Assembly: GCF_001267155.1 (NCBI RefSeq)
Contig: NZ_CP012357.1
Location: forward strand, 620,001-684,000
Reading direction: 5' to 3'
DNA length: 64,000 bases
DNA from: Spiroplasma litorale
GTDB lineage: Bacteria; Bacillota_I; Bacilli_A; Mycoplasmatales; Mycoplasmataceae
Part shown: piece by piece, positions 46,079 to 64,000 of the stretch
Layout: each line of letters begins with the position of its first letter
How positions within the stretch are numbered: position 1 is the first letter of the stretch
Position numbers and translations under genes: made by a program
Notes under the pieces: model-generated
Database searches by the model: none
Seen by the model: the letters and a program-made list of their open reading frames with translations, nothing else
Told to the model about the DNA's origin: nothing

Positions 46079-47923
46079 TTAATCTCTAATAAATAAATTT
46101 TCTAAAAATTCTATTTTTTGTTGTTTTTTAGTATCTGTAAAAACACTTGGAGTTACTAATTTATATATAAACCTACTATACAAATCTTTTTTAAATGAAA
46201 ATGCAGAGGCAGAATAAGGTTTATTTGATTTATCTAAATTTTTTGTATATAATTCATAAATTTCATCATAGGAAGCTTTTACAAAATCGGTTAAACCTGT
46301 TTCATCAAAACCTTTATAACTTAAAAAAATACTTTCATTATAAATTAATTTATTATTTAAAATTTCATCTGCCGAATCAATGCTTGTTAAGTAAGCAAAC
46401 TCATCCTTGTAATTATAAATTAATCATAATGTTGATATTAATCAATTCTCTATACTTTTAATTAAGGTTTGAACAATAGGGATGTCACCAAAATTAATAT
46501 AATTATTTATTTTTTTAATTAGTTTTGATGCATCTGTATAAAATTTAAAAACATTCAAATAATATTCTTCCTTTAATTTATCATTTTTGAATATCTTATT
46601 GTATAATTCATCACTAAAAATTTTAGATTTTTTTTGATTTGCTTCATATGGTTTCAAAAAAATTGTACTTAAAACATATTGTGCAAGCACATCATTTTCT
46701 AATACTAAAGGTTTCTTAATATTTAAATTTTCTGAAATATTTTTAATTACTTTATAGTTGCTTTCCCCTCTTTTTACATTTAGAACAAAACCATTTTTTT
46801 CAAAAAAATCTCTTAGACTTCTCATTTCTATTGAGTTTGATCTAAAATCACGAGGTTTTACAGGTTTCTGATTATTTGAAGATTTTGTAATTTTTTCAAC
46901 TAGTAAATTATAGTCATTATTTTTAGACTGTACAATTTTTGCGATTACTTTTACTTTATTGATGTTGTCTTTTAGTTCATTACTTTTATAAAATTTAGCT
47001 AAATTTGTAACTGTTTGAGCACCATTTACAATTGAAAAATTTGTTAATTTGACAAGATTATTATTTATATCTAAATCACCAATATTTTCTGCAACAATTG
47101 TAATTCCATTATTGTATATGATAAATTTTTCTGGTTCTTCATTAACGGTCATTTTTATGCTTTGATCAACTGATTTTGATGCTGCATCACCAGAAATACT
47201 ATACCTTATGTTTCTATCAAAAATTCTATTTTCAAATTTTTGATAACAATTAACAAGGGAAGTGGCCTCAAGTGTACATAATAAAATTTTTTCATTCTTA
47301 GTTTCATAACTAAATGTATTTGTTAGTTTAGTTTCAGCATTATTTTGGTTTACAAAAGTAAAATTATAAACTAGGTTACCATCTGTTAGGTTTTCATCCT
47401 CTTCTCCTTCTAATTTATTATTTAGTTTTTTTCTATCATAAAAGTTAAAATCTCCGTAATTATCAATATCGCTATAAATGCTTAATTTTTTATATAAATC
47501 TTTAATTTCATTATCAGATATATAATTATTAATTATTATATTTATATCGAAATTATAAGCATCATTTCTACAAATATTTTCAAGTAAATCTTTATAGTTA
47601 GGTCTTAAATTATCTGGAAATAATCCTTTTTTTAAGTTATCAATAAAAATAATTATATTTTTTATAGTATCATCTAGTTCATCTTCTTCTTTGATCATGA
47701 AAAATAGAATAGGTTTTTTAAAATCTTCTGCCTCATCATAAATAATAAGTTTAGGACATTTTGAATTATTTGAATAACAAATACTATTGTCATAATCGTA
47801 AATGGCATTTGGTAAATCTTTTTCTCTAGAAAAAATAAAATGACACATTATAATTAGATTTGTTGAATTTGAATATCTGCTTTTAAGTGCTACTTCAATA
47901 TATTCTTCCAATTTATTCTTCAT
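46079..47923 (-). CDS. AIPR-family protein, abortive infection/phage resistance (614 aa)
   Basis: Member of the AIPR family. The core is recognised from FIIYNNGITIVAENIGD followed by NFSIVNGAQTVTNLAKFY and, later, KITKSSNNQKPVKPRDFRSN, the classic order in this family. The N-terminal ~150 residues are acidic and specific to this protein. ATG 47923 (MKNKLEEYIE) is preceded by GAGGAAA; GTG 47938 is an alternative. It overlaps the 3' end of the upstream nuclease-like gene by 11 bases. The family is found in phage-defence islands and often near restriction-modification genes, as here. Its biochemical role is not established to my knowledge. Confidence 0.85.
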
Positions 47924-48644
47924 ACATAATTTCCTCACATATTTTCTTTATAAATTTATCATAACAGTTTACATATAATTTATTATCATTAAAAATATAA
48001 TTATTATCATATCTAAAATTAAAATTATTTTTAATTTCAAAATTATTAATTTCTTGTAAAATTTCTCGTTTACTAGAAAATTTTTGTATATCTAAATTGT
48101 CGTCATAGACGTTAATTAATAACCTGGACGGCATTAAATACTTATTGCTTTTAATTTTATTGTACATGTCTAAGTATTTATCAAAAAAACTTTGATTTAT
48201 TTTATAAAAACTTTTTACTTTTTTTGATTCATCATAAACAGGTGTTACAGATCTAGCATTTAGTATCCAAAATGTTTTAATATCATTCAATTGAATATTT
48301 GCGGTTTCTCCAATCATATTTGATAGTGAATTTTTCAAATTTTTTTGAACACTCGATAGATATAATTTAAGTTCAATTGTTGCAACAACTTTATTTTTAA
48401 CTACGTTTAATATTGCAATGTCTGCTTTTTTATCAAATAATAAACCTTCAACTTTATATTCTTTTTTATCAATTACTTTAGAACATATTTTATACTTTTC
48501 TTTATCTAAATAAAGTGATAAATGTCTATGTATTGCATAATGAAGAATGTCAACCTTTTTTGAGCTTCTTTCATAATTTATATGATTTGGTTGGCTTATT
48601 TTAAAAATTGTTTTTTCTAGTTCAAATAAAAAATCCTTTTTCAT
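47913..48644 (-). CDS. Probable PD-(D/E)XK nuclease-fold protein (243 aa)
   Basis: Cytoplasmic protein with a likely restriction-endonuclease core: VEGLLFDKKADIAILN (Asp before a strand) then KVVATIELKLYLSS, matching D...ExK spacing, followed by a helix with GETANIQ. The residues E-L-K make it an ExK catalytic pair. ATG 48644 starts MKKDFLFELEKTI, 12 bases after the methyltransferase stop. Position between an N6-adenine methyltransferase and AIPR suggests it is the cutting subunit of a restriction-modification system, or the nuclease arm of a larger defence system. Fold assignment is by eye. Confidence 0.6.
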   Translation of the reverse strand: MKKDFLFELEKTIFKISQPNHINYERSSKKVDILHYAIHRHLSLYLDKEKYKICSKVIDKKEYKVEGLLFDKKADIAILNVVKNKVVATIELKLYLSSVQKNLKNSLSNMIGETANIQLNDIKTFWILNARSVTPVYDESKKVKSFYKINQSFFDKYLDMYNKIKSNKYLMPSRLLINVYDDNLDIQKFSSKREILQEINNFEIKNNFNFRYDNNYIFNDNKLYVNCYDKFIKKICEEIMYEE

Positions 48645-48656
48645 TTATTTACCTCA

Positions 48657-50099
48657 TTAATTTTTTTGATTAATTTTATATATTTTATATGATAGGTATT
48701 GGTGCAAATCATTTGATGAGAAAAAATAATACTCCCCATTTTTATCTTTTCTCAAAATTTTTAAATATTCTATAAATTCTTGATCATATATGAGATTTTC
48801 GATATATTTTAAATCGTATTTTTCACTAATGACATAGTACCCACTATACGGGACTATACCAGGTTTTAATATTTTTGTTTTTATTGTATTAACTGTTTTA
48901 ATTATATTATTGATCACTAATTTGTTTTTATTAACATCTTTAATTCCTTGTGTTCGTGCAAATTCAAATCAGTTTTGAGATTGTAAACTTCTTTTAGAAA
49001 GAATTTCTTTATTATTTAATAATAAATTATACATATTTTTGTTTTCGTTTTTAATTATATTTAAAGGTACTGTATTTCCATCTTCATCGTATGGATAAAA
49101 CATTTTAGTTAATTTCATTTTAGATATTTTCATAGCTTCAACAACATATGAACCAGTGTACGAATCATTAATAAAGAAACTATCTAAATTTGTTGAAATG
49201 CCATTTCTAACAAATAAATCATTATTTTTCTTAACATTTAAAATTTCACTAAATTTTAACAACTGTTTAGTTTTTGAAAAATAAAAACAATCATTTATAT
49301 AAAACTCTTTTTTTTCTAAAATATCAATTTCAAAATTAAAATTATTAATAGAATCATACTCTTTATATTTTGTTTTCTTATTTTTAATTTTTGAAATGAC
49401 AGTAATTGCTGGATATGTAGTTATACCTTTGAAAGGATTAAAATGTCCTAAATTTATAACTGTTTCTAGCATCGATTTATCAATCAAATATTTTCTAAAA
49501 ACATTGGCTGCATTTGATGTAAAGTAAGAATTTGGTGTTATGTATATAAGTTTACCTTTTTCATTAAGCATATTTAAACCTATTTCAAAGAATATTAAGT
49601 ATAAATCAATCATCCCCTTAGTACAAAAATTATATTTTTTGTAGTCAATATTAAGATCATGAATTCTAATGTATGGTGGATTACCAACGACATAATCCAT
49701 TTTATTCAAAAACTGTGTACATTCTAATGTATCACCATTTATAATATTTCAATTTATTTTAACTTTAATTCCATTTTCTAATAAAACATTATTTAAATTT
49801 GAAATACATATTTTATAAGAAATAGGGTCAATTTCAATTCCGTGTATGTATTTTTCTAGATGTTTCTTAACATCTAATCTATTTTTTTTTAATTTTAATA
49901 ATTCTTTTAAATATCTTTTTGTAATTTCAACTAAAAAAGCCCCTTCACCACAAGAATTATCAACAATGTGTTTATTTAATATTTTTTTTCCTTTGTATTT
50001 AATTTCATCCAACATATTAATAACAATATAATTGGGTGTATAAACAACGCCATCTTTTATAATTCTTTCATTTATTTTTACACTATTTATGCTTTTCAT
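48657..50099 (-). CDS. N6-adenine DNA methyltransferase, TaqI/Eco57I-like (480 aa)
   Basis: DNA-modification enzyme. SAM-binding motif I IVDNSCGEGAFLVEIT (residues 46-61), catalytic motif IV VVGNPPYIRI (NPPY at 140-143), then a FxSNAANVFRKYLIDK region and a C-terminal target-recognition half (about 260-480). Upstream VVYTPNYIVINMLD is the typical YTP motif X. Two TGA Trp codons join three pieces. ATG 50099. It is the first gene of an operon with the nuclease-like and AIPR genes. The length suits a solitary methyltransferase subunit rather than a fused type IIG enzyme. Confidence 0.88.
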
Positions 50100-50211
50100 A
50101 ATATCTCCATGTTAATAAAATTATATATAATAATTTTTGCTATGTCTACAGATTTAAAAATAAATAAAATAAATAAAAAAATTATATATAATCAATATAA
50201 AGGTGATAATA

Positions 50212-51882
50212 ATGAATGGTGTGTTTAAAAAATTTAAATTTGATCAAAACTCAATAATAGTAGATGACGATTTTAAATTTTGGCCCCATATTTATATATT
50301 ATATTCAAGTAATAAAGAATCAATTAAATGTTATGTAGGCCAAACAAATAACATAAATCAAAGAATAATAAACCACATAAATGATCGAAATAAAGATTTT
50401 AAAGAAGTAATAACTTATACTAATAAGTTATTTAATATATCTTTTACGTATGAAATAGAATCTGGTTTAATAGAATTAATGTCTTCACATGATAAATTAC
50501 TACTATCTAACCAAAAGTCGGGTAATAGTCATAATTTTTTTGAAAAAAATAAAACCCCTTATTTTATGGAAGAAATATGAAAGCACTTAGATAAATTAGG
50601 TTTAGTAAAAAATAGCCTTAAAACAATAAAAAATAGCTTATTTTATCAAATTAATCCCTTAAAACCTTTAACAAATCATCAAAATAATATAATTGAAGAA
50701 ATAAAAAATTCAATTAAGAGCAATAAATTAAATTCTTATCTAATTAAAGGTCAATCAGGAACAGGCAAAACACTATGTGCAACTGCATTATTTTATTCTT
50801 TTTGTAACGATAATGAACTAAATAAATTAAAAATTGCTTATACTTCTGGAAATACTCAATTTAGAGACGATTTATATAGAACAATTAAGAATAAATCTTT
50901 TTATTTTAATTCCAAAAATATCATGAGTCCATCTCAAATCATAAAAGATTATGTTAAAAATAACTATGAAAAGTATGATTATATAATCGTTGATGAATCA
51001 CAAAGATTAAAAAAGAGAGAAGCCTTAAGCAATTATGACGTTTTTGATAAAAATTCTAATATATTAGGACTTAATAAAATGGAAACTAACGAACTTGAAT
51101 GATTAATGAGGGTGTCAAAAAATCAAATAATCTTTTATGACGATAATCAAACAATAAAGAATTCAGATTTAAATATAAATGAAGAAATTGAAAAATGCAA
51201 CTTTATAAAATACAATTTAGTTGATGAATTAAGAATGGAAAATGCTGATGAATATTTAAATTTATTAAAAAATATACTATTTAAAGAAAAAAATAAAATA
51301 GATAGGGATAAATTAGTAAAATATAACTTTAAGGTTTTTAAATCCTTTACCGATATGTATAATATGATTAATTTAATGAACAAACAACATAATTACTCAT
51401 TTTTATTATCAGGATTAGGATTTCCTAAAAATAATTTTAAAAACACAACTGGTTATAGCTCCAAAAAGAAACAAGTACTTGAAAAAGAAGATTTTAATAT
51501 TGACGGTATTAATTTGTATTGAAATGTAATAACTCAAAATTGAGTTGACTCAGAAAAAAACTGTGATTTAAAACTGAATATAAATGAGGTTGGTTGCGTT
51601 CATGTAATTCAAGGAAAAACTTTAAATTATGCAGCAGTTATAATTTCTGAAGAAATAGACTATATAAATAAAAAACTAGTTATATATAAAGATAGATATA
51701 ATGATAGAGTGATGAAAAATAATTATGATGAAAAGATTTTTTTAAAATATATATTAAACATATATTATGTATTATTGACAAGAGGTGTAAAAGGAACTTT
51801 TATATATATAAAAAATGTTGGGTTAAGAAAAAAAATTGAAGAAATATTTAAAAAATACAATATATCAGATTTAATTATTTAA
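50212..51882 (+). CDS. GIY-YIG nuclease fused to DUF2075/SF1 helicase (556 aa)
   Basis: Two-domain protein. Residues ~25-110 are a GIY-YIG-like nuclease: PHIYILYSSNKESIKCYVGQTNNINQRI region with YVG at 41-43 and Arg51. From ~150 on it is a DUF2075-type P-loop ATPase: Walker A GQSGTGKT (180-187), Walker B DYIIVDESQRLK, DDNQTI, and a C-terminal HVIQGKTLNYAAVII...LLTRGVKGTFIY, the family's helicase-type end. ATG 50212 with AAAGGTG upstream; six Trp are TGA. It is divergent from the methyltransferase operon across a 112-base gap. This architecture occurs in defence islands; nucleic-acid degradation coupled to translocation is the expected role. Confidence 0.82.
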
Positions 51883-54378: not shown

Positions 54379-56882
54379 TTAAAAATCAGCATTTAGTTTT
54401 TTATTTATTAATTTTATAAAATAATCTCTTAAAGATAAATTTTCACTCTTAATATATAACTCATTATTAATTGAAGAATTACCCCCGACTATAACATCGG
54501 TCAATAAACTCCCGCTTACAAAATGTTCATCTTTAGTTATTTTAAATAAAGTATTGTGGTTTTTAGGAATTTTTAACTTATCCCAAAAATCTACTACTTT
54601 TTTAGAATATAATTCTCTATGATATGGATAAATATAAGAATCTTTCAAGAGAATAAATCCATCGTCTACTTTTTTTATAAAAGCTTTGTAATCATTACTA
54701 AATTTTTTATATAGTAGAGTGTCATTTTTTATACTTTTTACATCTTTAAAAAACTTAATTCCATAATTATATGGGAAAGATATTTTTTGTGTTTTTGCAT
54801 TATTAATTATGTAATTAAAATTATTAATAATAAATTCAGATTTTTCATCGTTAAATGATTTTGTTTTTTTTAAAAACAATAATATATTAAAATTTTTAAA
54901 ATTAACTCCAGATTGTTTGTAATATATATATTTATCATAATTAAAAATATCAATAATTACCCATTCATCATTAACAAATTCAAAAATTTCAAACCAATTA
55001 GTAAAATTATTGTTGAATATTAATTTATATTTTATTTTTTTACCACTATTTTTATCTATACATTCTAGGGGTCAAACTTTAAATTTATTACATAGATTTG
55101 ACATTGCATATTCATTTTGTTTTTTTATTAATGTTATAAAATCTTCTTTTATAAGTCTATCAATATAAAGCTTTACACCTTTAAAAATAAGTTCATTTTT
55201 ATCTATTAGTTTTTTTATATTAAAAGGTGACATGAAACATTGGAATCTATCAATTCAGTAATTTTTTATATTAATGTTTGTCGCAATATCAACAACCTTT
55301 AAAACTTTATTATTATATTTTCTAAGCCCCCTACCAAGTTGTTGAGTAAAAATTGTTTTTGATTTAGTCGGTCTTAAAAAAATTACATTACTTATTTCTT
55401 TTATGTCTATTCCTTCATTAAAAATATCAACAACACATAAAAAATTTATTTCTTTATTTATAAAATCATTAATTTTAATGTTTCTATTGATATCTCCTGA
55501 TACTAAAAAATCTGATTTGAATCCATTGTTTATTAATAAGTTATTAATTTTTTTTGCATGATCAATATTTATACAAAATATTAAGGTTGTTGAATCATCA
55601 AAAAAATAATCATTAATGGATTTTAAAACTAAATTATTTCTTTTATCATTATCTACTTTTATAATTAATTTCATTTCATTTGCTAAATCAGCTTCATTTA
55701 ATGTAATTCCACTATCGTCTTTTATTAAATAATAATCTATATCACAAACTAAGTTTTTTTCAATTGCTTCATGCAAACTCATTTTATATAATACATTATC
55801 AAAAATCGATGTTATATCTTTCATACCAGACATTCTTTCTGGTGTTGCAGTTAAAGCTATATTATTTTTGGGTTTAAAAAAGTTATATATATATTCAAAA
55901 ATATTTGTATTAGTGGAATTATCAAAGTGATGTGCTTCATCATAAAAAATAATTCCAAATTGATCTTTTGAAAATATATTTTTATCAATTAAATTTTTAA
56001 GTCTTTTATTTGTTATAAATAAATTTTTACCTTTTAGATAAATACTATCTATATTATTAATATTTTCATCATTTACTAATAAAAAATCATCATTTTTACA
56101 TATACTTTTAAATCTATTATATGCATTTGTTAATATCTCAGTTCTATGTGTGGTAAATAACATAAAGTCATTTTTAAATGCAGACTTATAATTCAAAAAC
56201 ATAAAAGCTGCTAAAAACGTTTTTCCAGTTCCAGTTGGTAAAATTACACTGTGGTTTATTTTTTCAAATTTATCATTTTCATATTTATTTAATATATCTA
56301 ATTGATAGTAGTGTGGTTTAAAATTATCATCTTCAATAGTATTTATTCTATTAAAATATTTATTTTCTAATTTATCTCATTCTTTTTTTGATAGATCACT
56401 GAAGTTTATTAAGTTATAACCTCCATTATTATTTCACATATACTCAATATCTTTATTAGCATGATGTTTTTGTTCATCATACAAAAGTATACAATTTTCT
56501 TTACCAAATAACCCACTATAACTAAAATTTGCACTTCCTGAGAATATCGCAAAATCTTTATCATAACTAAAAAAAACATTTTTTTATGTAAGGGTTTTTC
56601 GCCTCTTTTAACATTTTGTACTTTAATATTTATTGAATCTTTGTACATATCTGATATATATTTTAAATCATCATAATTAAATGATTCTCATGTTTCATTA
56701 AAAGTTGAAGTAATAACATTTATTATTCCACCTTTATTAACAAAAAAATCAAATTCATTTTTAAAAACTAAAAATGCTTCTTTTGATATAAATGGAGAAA
56801 CTATGTATATTAAATTGGATTTTTTTATATAATCTTTAAAAGTTTTAACTATATTTAAGTCATTTGAGTCAGAATAATACAT
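54379..56882 (-). pseudogene. PLD-nuclease/SF2 helicase defence protein with one frameshift (~835 aa if restored)
   Basis: The N terminus (ATG 56882 after AAAGGAATT) is phospholipase-D-like: KPLHKK then, in the next frame, FAIFSGSANFSYSGL, which together form an HxK...GSxN motif. A superfamily-2 helicase follows: PTGTGKT, IIFYDEAHH, ALTATPERM, VVDIFNEGIDI and QQLGRGLRK. The C-terminal ~300 residues are charged and unrecognised (DUF3427-like setting). A one-base change in the A7/T8 run near 56579-56590 puts the PLD and helicase parts in different frames; every other part is intact. It could be a sequencing error, a phase switch or a true knockout. Third gene of the operon with 56929-57354 and 57354-60824. 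Confidence 0.75.
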
Positions 56883-56928
56883 ACTAATTCCTTTTTATAA
56901 TTATAATATATTAAAAAATTAATTATAA

Positions 56929-57354
56929 TTATTTTTTTTCTTGCTGTTGTTTTTCTCTATTAATTAAATTAGTGTGTTTTAAAAAACATTTACTAGAGTT
57001 ATTAATTTCTTTATCACTATTATAATCAAGCTTTATTTTATCAAGTATAATATTTTTTAATTGTACACGTTTTTTAGGACCGTCATTAATTACAGAGTCT
57101 CTTATTTTAAAACTACTTCTTTTATCTAAAATTTCCCTACTTAATATTTTCATTAAATTATTATAATTTTCTTCAATTTTAAATTCATAGTATTCTTTAT
57201 TGACTTCTTCTAATGCTCTATCTATATAGATTTGTTTATATTTATTTAGAGTTGCAACACAATAACTATGAATTAGGTATCCTATTGTTAGAGTTAAAGT
57301 TACAACTATAATAACTACTGATATAATTAATAAAACAATCTGTCATGTTTCCAT
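56929..57354 (-). CDS. Small membrane-anchored protein of the helicase operon (141 aa)
   Basis: ATG 57354 overlaps the helicase stop (TAATG). An N-terminal membrane helix (WQIVLLIISVVIIVVTLTLT, residues 4-23) is followed by ~115 highly charged, helical residues (EEVNKEYYEFKIEENYNNLMK, SSFKIRDSVINDGPKKRVQLKN) ending in EKQQQEKK. No family recognised. Its fixed position between two helicase-nuclease genes suggests it anchors or senses for the complex at the membrane, an inference. Confidence 0.7.
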
Positions 57355-60300
57355 TATAATTCCCCTTCGTACATATTAATTTCAGATTTTATATTGTTAA
57401 TAAACCTATTTTTAGCTATTTTGTTTTTATCTCATCAATCAGTTGATAATATTCTTAAAAACTTTCATCCTCTATTTTCTAAATATTTTTGTCTATCATA
57501 ATCATTTTGTTTACTAAACACACTACTGTGAAAAGACAATCCATCACATTCGATTGCTAAAACATATTGTTTTTTTAAAAAATCATATATTGCTAAATCA
57601 ATTTTATATCCTGATGCTGGTACTTGTGTATGTAATTTATAACGCTCTTTATTTAATCAACCATTTATTTCATCATAAACTTCAACTTCAAATTCACTAT
57701 CAAATTCCAAGTTATAATCATCAGTTTCTAAATTAAAAAGCTTGGTTTCGTTTTTTAGCATCATTTCAATTTCTTTTTCATGCTTTATTGGATCTCTTAA
57801 TAATTCACAATATTTCAAAAAATCTTTAAAATCAAGCACTCCTTTTTTTTCTGAATTAATAATTGATGAGTTTATAGATTTTATAACATACATTTTTTCT
57901 TTAGCTCTTGATACGGCCACATTCAATCTTTTTTCACCATTAACTTGTGCTAATGGACCAAAATAATTTTTAAATATGTTTGTTTTATCATAAGAAAATC
58001 CTACTGAAAATATTATTATATCCCTTTCATCTCCTTGAACATTTTCAATACTCTTTACAAAAAGTTCTTCTCCATTTTCTTTTTGATACAAATTAAAATA
58101 TAGTTCAGCATTTTTTGAACTTTCTTTTTCTAGTAAATCTAGAATTAATGATTGTTGTTCTGAGTTAAAGGTGATAATTCCAATTGATTTATTTTTTATT
58201 TTTTCATTACTTAATATAAATTTAACTAATTCTAATACTGTATTTGCTTCTTCAATATTAATTCTATTTTCTCTTATTCCGTTTACTTCTATCAACTCTA
58301 TTGGTCATTTAGTGTACTTAACTTGTTTGCTTACTATTAATTTATTTTCATAATATTTAGCATTAGAAAAATCAATTAATTCTTTATTTTTACTTCTATA
58401 ATGATATCTAAGCATTGATGATTTAAACCTTCCTTTAGCAAAATCTAATAAACTTTCAAATTTCATAGCTTCTTTTGCTTCATAATTTATTTGGTTTACA
58501 ACATCTTCATCATCTTCTATATCTTCTAATACATCATTTTTCATTTTAAAAAAACTTGTTGGCGCAAGTTGTTTATCATCCCCTGATATAACATATTTTT
58601 TTGCACGATATAGTATTGGAATACATTTTTCAGTAAATATTTGACTGGCTTCATCAAATATTGCATAATCAAATTCATTTCTTTTTAATGGAATAATTTT
58701 ACAATCAGATAATATCTCAGGAGATCCAATTATTATTGGGAAAAATAATTTAATTAATGGTAGATAGTTTTTAAATAAAGTTGATATTCTCATATTTGTT
58801 TTTGTATTACTTATTTTTCTTCCAAGATCATTAAATAATGTTTTATAGCTTTTTTCTATACCATATATTTCATCTTTGTATACACCAAGTTTAATTTTAT
58901 TTATAATATTATAAAAATAATTATTTATTATATTTTTTTTATTAATATCAACTTTATTTTCAGATAAATTGTTTATTTTTTTATATCAATCATCAGCCAT
59001 AAAATCGAATAAATTTTTATTATTTGTTTTAAAAGAATTACAATATGAAGCAATTAAAACATTATTTGTTAATTCTAAATTTATTCTACTTGTATTTAAT
59101 ATTTTTTTTATAAAATCTATAATTGTTTTAACTTCATAACTTGAATATTTTGATAAAAATTCATTTGATACTGAAATTAATTGTGAACATTGTTCTGTAC
59201 CCAAGAATTGTTTAAATTTTTTTCTATTTCAAATATTTATTTTTGTTTTAATCTTGTTTTTTATTATATAGTTATAAAATAATTCTGGAAGTTGACTATT
59301 TTCATATAGTGCGTCTAAAATAGATTCATTATAAGAATCCTTGTTTAATAATTTATGCAATAAATTTAAATCCATAATTAAATTATTTTTACTCAATAAA
59401 AGCTCTTTTACACCTAAAAATAAGTTAATTTTATCTTTTTTTATTTTTTCAGTAGTTATTTCCTCAAATTTAATTAAATATTTAACAAATGTTAGATATA
59501 ATTTACCCTCATCTTTTTTAAATAATTCTTTATATTTTTTGACTTTATCATAATATCCATCTAATTTAACAGACACTTCATCATTTTTGATTTCATTATT
59601 ATTATAAATTTGTAAGTATTCATTTACATTATTGTATATTTTTTTTATTTTTTCAAATATTATGGCAGCAGAATCGTTATTGTGGAACATTAAAGCAAAG
59701 TTGTTTAAATCATGTAGTTTATCATAAACCACTTTTGAAGCCACTTTTTTTTCAGTTACAAATATTGCTGATTTATTTTTATTTATTATATTTGCTAACA
59801 AATTTACTATTACCTGAGATTTACCAGTTCCAGGTGGACCAAATATAAATGTTGAATTTGATAAAGATTTAATAACTGCATTTTTTTGAGTGAAATCAAG
59901 TGATGAAATATTAACAAAATCTGATTCTTTATAATCAATATCAACATTTTCTAAAATATCATTAGTCTCTTTAAAAATCTCATCTAAAAAACTAATATCT
60001 TCATTTTCTAAGATATTATATGCAGATAATATTGTGCTAGATGCTATATCATATATCCCAAATGAACATACATTTAAACAAAATGCCTGATTAAAGTATT
60101 TATTGTTTTTTTCTTGAAAATTTTTACCCGCTTCATCTCTTTTATATCCTTTAGCGTTTTCAAACTCTAAATTAAAAGTGTTTTCAAAATTTTGTGGATC
60201 AGTTAACCTATAACCAATATCATTGAAATATAATATAAACTTTTCAATTAGAAGTTCTTTATCACTTAATTGTAATTCTCCTAATTCTTGATACTCTCAT

Positions 60301-60824
60301 TTCTTTTTATTTTTTAATGCTAATATATTAAAAATGGAGTTATTTAATATTAATTCATCTTCTATGACTACTTTGTATAATGAACCTCCCATATCTTTTA
60401 TTGCAATTTTTTTCAATATTAATGGGGCTCTAAAGTAATCACCTTCATTTGTTGATGCACAACCTTCCACAAAATACAGACCCATATATAAAACATTAAT
60501 ATTTTTTTCATTTGATTGCATTTTACTCTTTTGGATTATTTTTTTTATATGTTTTGCGTAACTCAATATACCCTTTGGTGTTAAATTTTCATCAGTTACT
60601 TCAATATCATAAAAACTTATAAAAAAAGTTTTAGATTCCAATGCTTTTTTAAGCGAAATTGGGGATTTATCGTTTTGGTTCAATCTTAGCAATTCTAATT
60701 TTTCTAACAATTTAAAATCTATTGTTAAAGCAGATGGCAAAAAACTGTTATAAAATATTCCACTATTTTTATTACTATTTAATAACCTACTTTTAAAATT
60801 TTTTAATAACTCATTACTATCCAT
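57354..60824 (-). CDS. Large SF1 helicase (AAA_11/AAA_12 type) with C-terminal Vsr-like nuclease (1156 aa)
   Basis: Single frame through five TGA Trp codons. The N-terminal ~310 residues are a family-specific region. The helicase has Walker A FGPPGTGKSQ (328-335), Walker B FDEASQ (723-728), ISGDDKQLAPTSF, RYHYRSKNKELI, NVQGDERDIIIFSVGF and RLNVAVSRAKEKMYVI, the order of COG1112-type superfamily-1 enzymes. The last ~100 residues are a PD-(D/E)XK Vsr/DUF559-type domain: KIDLAIYD (Asp1076), LAIECDGLSFHS (Glu1092) and DRQKYLENRGWKFLRILSTDWW. ATG 60824. First gene of a three-gene operon. Similar helicase-nuclease fusions occur in phage defence. Confidence 0.85.
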
Positions 60825-61003: not shown

Positions 61004-61678
61004 CTATTTTGATTGTTTAATGATTTGTTCTTCTGTGATTTCTAAATCTAAATCTTCAAATATATAATTTTAATAATTAATTGGTGTATTTTCATCATAA
61101 ACACTAATAAAATCATTTTTATACTTATTAGATTTATCAAATATTGAATATGATATGTTTGAGTTTATAAATTTCGAATTGTTTATGTCGGTTTTTTTAA
61201 AATTTATATCTGATAAATTACAATTTTAAAATTTAACATTGTTTAAATTTGAATCCTCGAATATAGAGTTTTTAAAATCACAATTGTAAAAATATATATT
61301 TTCTAAATTACAATTTTTAAAATTTGAGTTTTCAAAATTAGCTTTACGTATAGAGTTTTGGTTTCAATAAAAATCGTTTAAATCTGTTTCATTAACATCA
61401 ACATTAAAGATCTTGCAATTAACAAATAATGAATTTGATAAATCACATAAATCAAAATTAACTTTAAATAGATTAGAACTATTTAACTCAATATACTTTA
61501 AAATATTATCTGTAAAGTTAACTATTTCAATATTACATTTGTTAAATACGGAGCACCTTAGTTTATTATTGTTAAATTCAATTTTTTTAATACTTGAACT
61601 TGTCATTTCTAAGGCATTGAATATATTACTATTAAATTCTGAATTATAATAAATTAAATTATTTCCATTAAAATTTGT
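61004..61678 (-). pseudogene. Truncated pentapeptide-repeat protein
   Basis: The frame has strings of five-residue units with central Phe/Leu (SNFKNCNLENIYFYNCDFKNSIFEDSNL pattern, shown in part), the signature of pentapeptide-repeat proteins with a right-handed beta-helix. Two in-frame TAA (61226-61228 and 61070-61072) interrupt it before TAG at 61004. The 5' end is cut by an IS-B end at ~61675, so no start remains. Such proteins can mimic DNA; the former role here is unknown. Confidence 0.7.
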
Positions 61679-62982: not shown

Positions 62983-63059
62983 TTTAGGACTTTTTAAAAA
63001 AATATTTGCTATGGTATTTACAATTATTTCCTTAAATTTTAATATTAATAATTTTTTTA
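62983..63059. other. Sequence between IS-A copy 3 and the CRISPR array
   Basis: 77 bases of AT-rich DNA. It contains CTATGGTATTTAC, weakly like the complement of the repeat end, but no promoter or clear leader. It is probably the leader-distal flank, because the adjoining repeat is degenerate. Confidence 0.4.
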
Positions 63060-64000
63060 ATTTTATTACTACATAATTTTACAGGGTACCATAACCCATT
63101 AATAAAACTAAACCTTCAAAGTTTGGTTCTACTACTACATAATTTTACAGGGTACCATAACATAATCTCTTTTGCAATAGATAAAGATTTTGTTCTACTA
63201 CTACATAATTTTACAGGGTACCATAACTCTCAAGAAGCTATTTGCTTCATTTTGTTTGTTCTACTACTACATAATTTTACAGGGTACCATAACAACAAAT
63301 TCGAATTACCAAATAATGCAAAAGTTCTACTACTACATAATTTTACAGGGTACCATAACTAACCTCGCTCATATTTATTTGACCAAAAAGTTCTACTACT
63401 ACATAATTTTACAGGGTACCATAACTTAACTCCGTTTGCTCCTACATAATTCAAAGTTCTACTACTACATAATTTTACAGGGTACCATAACACATTGTAA
63501 GTTGGTATCGGGTTTTTATTTGTTCTACTACTACATAATTTTACAGGGTACCATAACTGAATAGATGAATTGACACTGTTGTTGAAAGTTCTACTACTAC
63601 ATAATTTTACAGGGTACCATAACTTCAGTTGAGTCTGGGTCAAGTGTTTCGTCGTTCTACTACTACATAATTTTACAGGGTACCATAACTAATGAAAAGA
63701 AAGGAAAAAGAATAATGACGTTCTACTACTACATAATTTTACAGGGTACCATAACCTGCTATTGTACTTTCAAAACTGTTGACAAGTTCTACTACTACAT
63801 AATTTTACAGGGTACCATAACACCATTTTTGTTTGTGATAACGTGTGATATGTTCTACTACTACATAATTTTACAGGGTACCATAACGTTAATGAACATG
63901 AACTATTAGCATCTTTGGTTCTACTACTACATAATTTTACAGGGTACCATAACGCCTGTTCCTAATGCTAACAAAGTGAACTTGTTCTACTACTACATAA
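63060..64000. CRISPR. CRISPR array: 15 repeats of 36 bp, 14 spacers of 30 bp, continues past the right edge
   Basis: Repeat starts are at 63060, 63126, 63192, 63258, 63324, 63390, 63456, 63522, 63588, 63654, 63720, 63786, 63852, 63918 and 63984 (truncated): exact 66-base period. The repeat begins GTTCTACTACTACAT and ends CAGGGTACCATAAC; 36 bases with GTT/AAC ends fits type II (Cas9) arrays of Mollicutes. The first repeat differs at positions 1, 4 and 7, which marks the leader-distal end if convention holds, so the leader and cas genes should lie to the right. Transcription direction is uncertain. The open frames that appear here merely translate repeats. Confidence 0.95.

Follow-up and report, generated by a model that had tools for sequence, protein, structure and literature searches.

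We analysed a 64,000-nucleotide stretch of the 1.23-Mb Spiroplasma litorale genome (G000:C1:620001-684000), here called the window, and focus on two adjacent genes, A and B, which encode a helicase-nuclease and a small membrane protein. Open reading frames (ORFs) were called under genetic code 4, where TGA is read as tryptophan; eight TGA codons in A are decoded in this way. The features of the pair, in window coordinates, are as follows.

57354..60824, minus strand: gene A, a protein of 1156 amino acids (aa) with a DUF4011-like region, an Upf1-like helicase of superfamily 1B (SF1B) and a C-terminal Vsr-type (MTES_1575) endonuclease
56929..57354, minus strand: gene B, a 141-aa single-pass membrane protein whose soluble domain is conserved and whose translation is coupled to that of A
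57354..57354, minus strand: TAATG, in which the stop of A and the start of B share one base

The coordinates of both genes match those of a preliminary description of this DNA, which had recognized in A a superfamily 1 (SF1) helicase with a Vsr/DUF559-type tail and in B a protein with a single N-terminal membrane helix, overlapping A by one base and followed 46 bases on by the next ORF (the start of a gene called C below); all of this holds. Pfam families matched in A are MTES_1575 (87 bits, residues 1045-1145), AAA_12 (73 bits), AAA_11 (55 bits) and, at the N-terminus, DUF4011 (29 bits), and all four exceed their gathering scores, which places A in the broad DUF4011-helicase-Vsr superfamily. 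DUF559 is also matched at the C-terminus, beside the Vsr-type nuclease family REase_MTES_1575. The helicase and nuclease motifs are intact, namely the Walker A motif GPPGTGKS, DEASQ and the nuclease signature ID...ECDG...R.RQ. The predicted model of A is good in the helicase, fair in the nuclease and poor at residues 427-625, and its fold matches Senataxin, Upf1 and Dna2, as does its sequence. The nearest annotated relatives are the antiphage families PDC-S37, ProA and Hhe, with PADLOC scores of 460 bits for PDC-S37 and 229 bits for Hhe. Relatives of A also occur on viral contigs, at 23-43% identity.

The only hydrophobic segment of B is N-terminal (about residues 6-28), and the charges beside it point to a cytoplasmic C-terminus in most members of the family. 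The members share the motif D.R....ik.SV..rGP.K...Lk..v....D. Matching against five libraries (Pfam, NCBIfam, PADLOC, PHROGs and PDB sequence) gave no significant named family, and the isolated matches obtained (E 0.0009 or weaker) concern one member each and are not shared between members. Folded alone, B yields a confident N-terminal helix only, with a mean predicted local distance difference test score of 65.8, and the soluble domain gave no fold. Used as a query by itself, this soluble domain finds remote relatives in two genera, g9 and g50, with E down to 1e-11. They are stand-alone genes with neither A nor a nuclease adjoining; those in g9 adjoin ribosomal-protein genes, and one is part of a prophage, close to the gene for a portal protein. 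B may therefore derive from a small membrane protein of chromosomal or phage origin. At L224:6062-9616 a B-like soluble domain, in an ORF with no membrane helix, is encoded near prophage portal and packaging-type genes, and at L220:9042-9314 and L226:9442-9714, in a mobile-element-rich region, a bacterial HMG-box protein (Pfam HMG_box, E 9e-17 in L220) immediately precedes a B-like membrane protein.

We searched for A across 320 genomes of the order and examined the nearest loci with their flanks. Strong B homologues, defined by E below 1e-30 with the B profile, occur in eight of these genomes, every time directly beside A: B follows A in the window and in G196, G178, G205, G204, G159, G157 and G200, at a spacing of -17 to +20 bp. 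This recurrence in eight genomes of four genera means that the adjacency is not due to chance. A class-wide sample of 395 yielded no further strong pair. A tree built from 25 A proteins places those accompanied by B within one clade of nine (support 100/99), throughout which the helicase and nuclease motifs are preserved, and the distribution of B takes a single gain and a single loss, which gives B one origin. The loss is in G182, whose A is the nearest to that of the window (78% identity) and is intact and under purifying selection, with a ratio of nonsynonymous to synonymous substitution rates (dN/dS) of 0.13 against the S. litorale gene. In place of B, a pentapeptide-repeat gene (L031:7485-8855) follows A in G182; a pentapeptide-repeat gene also lies upstream of A in the window, at 61226-61606. 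Between G157 and G159 dN/dS is 0.089 for A and 0.132 for B, so that purifying selection acts on both, and to call B a linker, as the preliminary description did, was right as to its membrane anchor but undersold a conserved soluble domain maintained by selection. Pairwise identities of A and B covary (r=0.95, Mantel p=0.0001, 28 pairs), which would be expected for any co-inherited pair and consequently speaks for joint inheritance rather than contact.

The pair is patchy and mobile, its two genes being transferred as a unit. The insert of G157 and G159 consists solely of A and B and separates rpsI from a tRNA-Ile upstream of leuS, whereas four congeners (G158, G161, G162 and G163) have the empty site, with rpsI followed by tRNA-Ile and leuS within about 285 bp. 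A different gene of at least 417 aa occupies this gap upstream of leuS in G160 (L234), which suggests an insertion hotspot beside tRNA-Ile. The pair of G200 occupies another site, between ptsH and ptsI. We found no paper on the A-B pair, which is real and, as far as found, undescribed. The preliminary description had seen the combination in one Mollicute; the pair is more widely distributed than that.

Several A-type genes of other composition were seen. Decayed copies of A lie at L049:7811-9299 (G195) and L039:3876-8522 (G187). In many genomes of genus g8, A-type paralogues (for example, L106:8225-11887 and L043:5313-8927) have lost the nuclease glutamate, with IICD replacing ECD, and are followed after 8-9 bp by a conserved protein of ~485 aa. 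A homologue of the latter, a 511-aa protein without any Pfam match, is found in G166 (L050:2601-11100), 2 bp downstream of an A-type ORF that is itself preceded, 15 bp upstream, by a 1012-aa fusion of a phospholipase D-type (PLD) domain to a superfamily 2 (SF2) helicase; this gene set is possibly another helicase-nuclease operon. A hydrophobic upstream extension of the A-type ORF in G166 was considered as a membrane-helix fusion and rejected: KGERN-M (AAAGGAGA-like coding) precedes a later ATG, which suggests a ribosome-binding site there, so that translation of the extension is improbable.

The window constitutes a defence island and contains, besides the genes discussed so far, the following features.

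46079..51882: an AIPR/AbiU-like gene (619 aa), a 243-aa gene without assigned family, a type II N6-methylase and a divergent GIY-YIG/Schlafen-type helicase
63054..63965: CRISPR array, 13 units, 66-nucleotide spacing

The methylase is of the Eco57I/N6 type, and the 559-aa product of the last gene in the first group fuses GIY-YIG to a Schlafen-group-3-type helicase. In the next 8 kb beyond the window (L105), a Cas9-like gene (1076 aa) and genes resembling cas1/cas2 can be recognized, the Cas names coming from reading of the sequences and not from a profile search. In G196 the A-B pair lies near AbiU-like and NsnA-like genes.

We assign a probability of about one half to the reading that A and B constitute a defence module of two genes, where B would retain the helicase-nuclease at the membrane so that it cuts incoming DNA. 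A would be a cytosolic helicase of the Upf1/Dna2-like kind, with the 5'-3' polarity of its family, equipped with a Vsr-type endonuclease, and the C-terminal domain of B, most likely cytoplasmic, would bind A and keep it at the membrane. Foreign DNA, from a phage or a mobile element, would then be attacked on entry, and the chromosome would be spared through the membrane position of A. The defence role is supported by context: the resemblance of A to PDC-S37, ProA and Hhe and the island surroundings in G000, among restriction-modification, AIPR/AbiU and Cas9/CRISPR genes, and in G196 count in its favour. The contact between A and B, the tethering of A at the membrane and DNA as the target are what we infer from the two proteins. 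The preliminary description had proposed a membrane-attached nucleic-acid degradation system, which is a reasonable inference for the pair, given the domains of A, the single-pass B and their conserved pairing, but it had counted C as the third member.

Five observations weigh against a defence module anchored by B. First, outside the B-bearing clade A-type proteins stand alone, and second, DUF4011 genes can be core genes, as in P. aeruginosa (PMC10250203); taken together, these mean that membership in the A family is by itself no proof of defence. Third, neither the rpsI site nor the ptsH-ptsI site of insertion is in a defence island. Fourth, the positive-inside signal is weak in the B members of G157/G159 and G204. 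Fifth, and most telling against B being obligatory, the A of G182 is intact in the absence of B, so that B is not strictly required.

The last observation also bears on an alternative that we regard as doubtful, in which B would be a regulator, that is, an inhibitor or sensor that restrains a toxic helicase-nuclease and releases it upon a signal from the membrane, for instance injection or depolarisation, in a Zorya-like logic. Such a role would agree with the tight coupling of A and B and with a conserved soluble domain that exceeds the needs of a bare anchor, and Zorya and Kiwa, which combine membrane sensors with DNA-acting partners, provide a precedent (PMC12904381). However, the A of G182 is evidently not lethal alone, unless it is controlled otherwise, and no extracellular domain that could sense the envelope is evident in B.

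It is unlikely that A and B are a housekeeping pair engaged in DNA or RNA repair or processing. The Upf1/Dna2-like helicase superfamily to which A belongs, the core DUF4011 genes and the two insertion sites in housekeeping regions would fit such a function, but a pair present in 8/320 genomes at sites that differ from genus to genus, with A decayed in G195 and G187 and with a defence-island location in G000 and G196, speaks against it. We give even less credence to the possibility that B is a membrane effector, where A would sense foreign nucleic acid and B would oligomerise or depolarise the membrane in abortive infection. Small membrane proteins are common as abortive-infection effectors, and B is encoded directly after a sensor-like helicase; nevertheless, A holds its own intact nuclease motifs, the conservation of B extends beyond the helix over the soluble domain, and the distant relatives of B are single chromosomal genes, partly next to ribosomal-protein genes.

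The remaining alternative concerns gene C, which the preliminary description had treated as one protein, a PLD-SF2 helicase, and as the third gene of an operon with A and B. We place its features outside the A-B unit.

56409..56882, minus strand: PLD half of C, first frame, 157 aa
54379..56484, minus strand: SF2 (ResIII/DEAD and Helicase_C) helicase half of C, second frame, 701 aa
56569..56576: eight-base homopolymer (A8 on the plus strand), site of the frame break

Over residues 1-103 the PLD half is 56-60% identical to intact proteins of 836/837 aa in G196 and G194, which carry PLDc_2/RE_NgoFVII PLD domains, and the helicase half (Pfam ResIII 81.9 bits, Helicase_C 42.9 bits) is 51-53% identical to the same proteins. 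The homology changes frame at the eight-base run, which the preliminary description had missed; because the relatives are continuous at 818-837 aa, the C of the window is broken there. No other frame break was seen in it, and mutation, assembly error and slippage are consequently all possible as the cause. Full-length relatives of C are single genes in G196 (about 15 kb from A-B), in G194 and G199, both of which lack A-B, and in G191, where an A-type gene is about 80 kb distant. C-type genes also recur close to A-type genes: G166 has one 15 bp upstream, in G197 A is flanked by fragments, and in G198 the distance is about 5 kb. As the order and strand of C relative to A-type genes vary each time, C is a frequent island neighbour and not a component. 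The neighbourhoods of the B homologues, where A recurs in all eight genomes and a C-type gene in none of the seven other A-B loci, together with the empty-site evidence, lead us to reject the three-gene operon, and C is best read as a system of its own, made of one gene, within the same island and frame-broken in G000. A joint three-component action of A, B and C, for which their close co-directional arrangement in the window and the recurrence of C-type genes near A-type genes in G166, G197, G198 and G196 could be cited, is very improbable, considering that the other seven pairs lack C, that G194 and G199 have C without A-B, that the G157/G159 insert consists of A and B only and that the C of the window is broken.

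Among known systems, the antiphage protein Hhe (NCBIfam NF042953, PADLOC Hhe) has DUF4011, an SF1 helicase and a Vsr-type nuclease in the same order as A, but its model is about 1800-1900 aa long compared to 1156 aa, and A scores 312.8 bits against it, below the equivalog cut-off of 2000. Hhe is a single-gene family for which we know of no membrane partner. The best-scoring annotated relatives of A are ProA (NF058533; model length 1903 aa), where the 462.4 bits of A fall below the equivalog cut-off of 1500, and the PADLOC candidate PDC-S37 (1550 aa), with 459.8 bits and a best stretch at profile positions 788-1343 of 1550. No paper explaining ProA was found in the library that was searched. 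Dna2, Upf1 and Senataxin are the closest solved structures, and Dna2 also joins a nuclease to an SF1B helicase; its nuclease, however, is of another type and N-terminal, and all three are eukaryotic housekeeping enzymes. The parallel with Mokosh, drawn earlier, does not extend beyond a resemblance of MkoA and MkoC to the SF1 helicase core of A (105 and 95 bits): A has no PLD domain, MkoB matches neither B nor the pieces of C, and A is not a Mokosh protein. Zorya and Kiwa share with A-B the combination of a membrane component and a DNA-acting component, but the ZorA/ZorB motor and KwaA/KwaB have no PADLOC counterpart in A, and B has no PADLOC match at all.

A functional analogy exists with SNIPE (DUF4041-GIY-YIG), in which a single N-terminal helix with the N-terminus out keeps the nuclease at the membrane, where it cuts phage DNA during injection, and which attacks the chromosome when deprived of its helix (PMC13190303). 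The likeness lies in a single N-terminal membrane helix, a cytoplasmic nuclease and a proposed action on entering DNA. There is no homology (neither DUF4041 nor GIY-YIG has a Pfam match in A or B), and SNIPE is one polypeptide with another nuclease and no helicase, whereas here the helix is on B and the nuclease is on A, fused to an SF1 helicase; A-B would thus be SNIPE-like with the anchor on a separate protein. Tentatively, one may go further and see in A-B an undescribed two-protein immune system, where a dedicated small membrane protein recruits a Dna2-like helicase-nuclease to the membrane and DNA is unwound and cut during entry. On that possible though speculative reading, the B family is seen only in this order, and A-B would be the equivalent of SNIPE in wall-less bacteria, split over two proteins and driven by a helicase. 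If true, it would offer 1) a testable mechanism for the widespread DUF4011-helicase-Vsr proteins, for which we found no described mechanism, 2) a defence module particular to Mollicutes, where the lack of a cell wall makes DNA entry different, and 3) a second, independent case, after SNIPE, of separation of self from non-self by membrane position, accomplished by a helicase-nuclease with a separable anchor.

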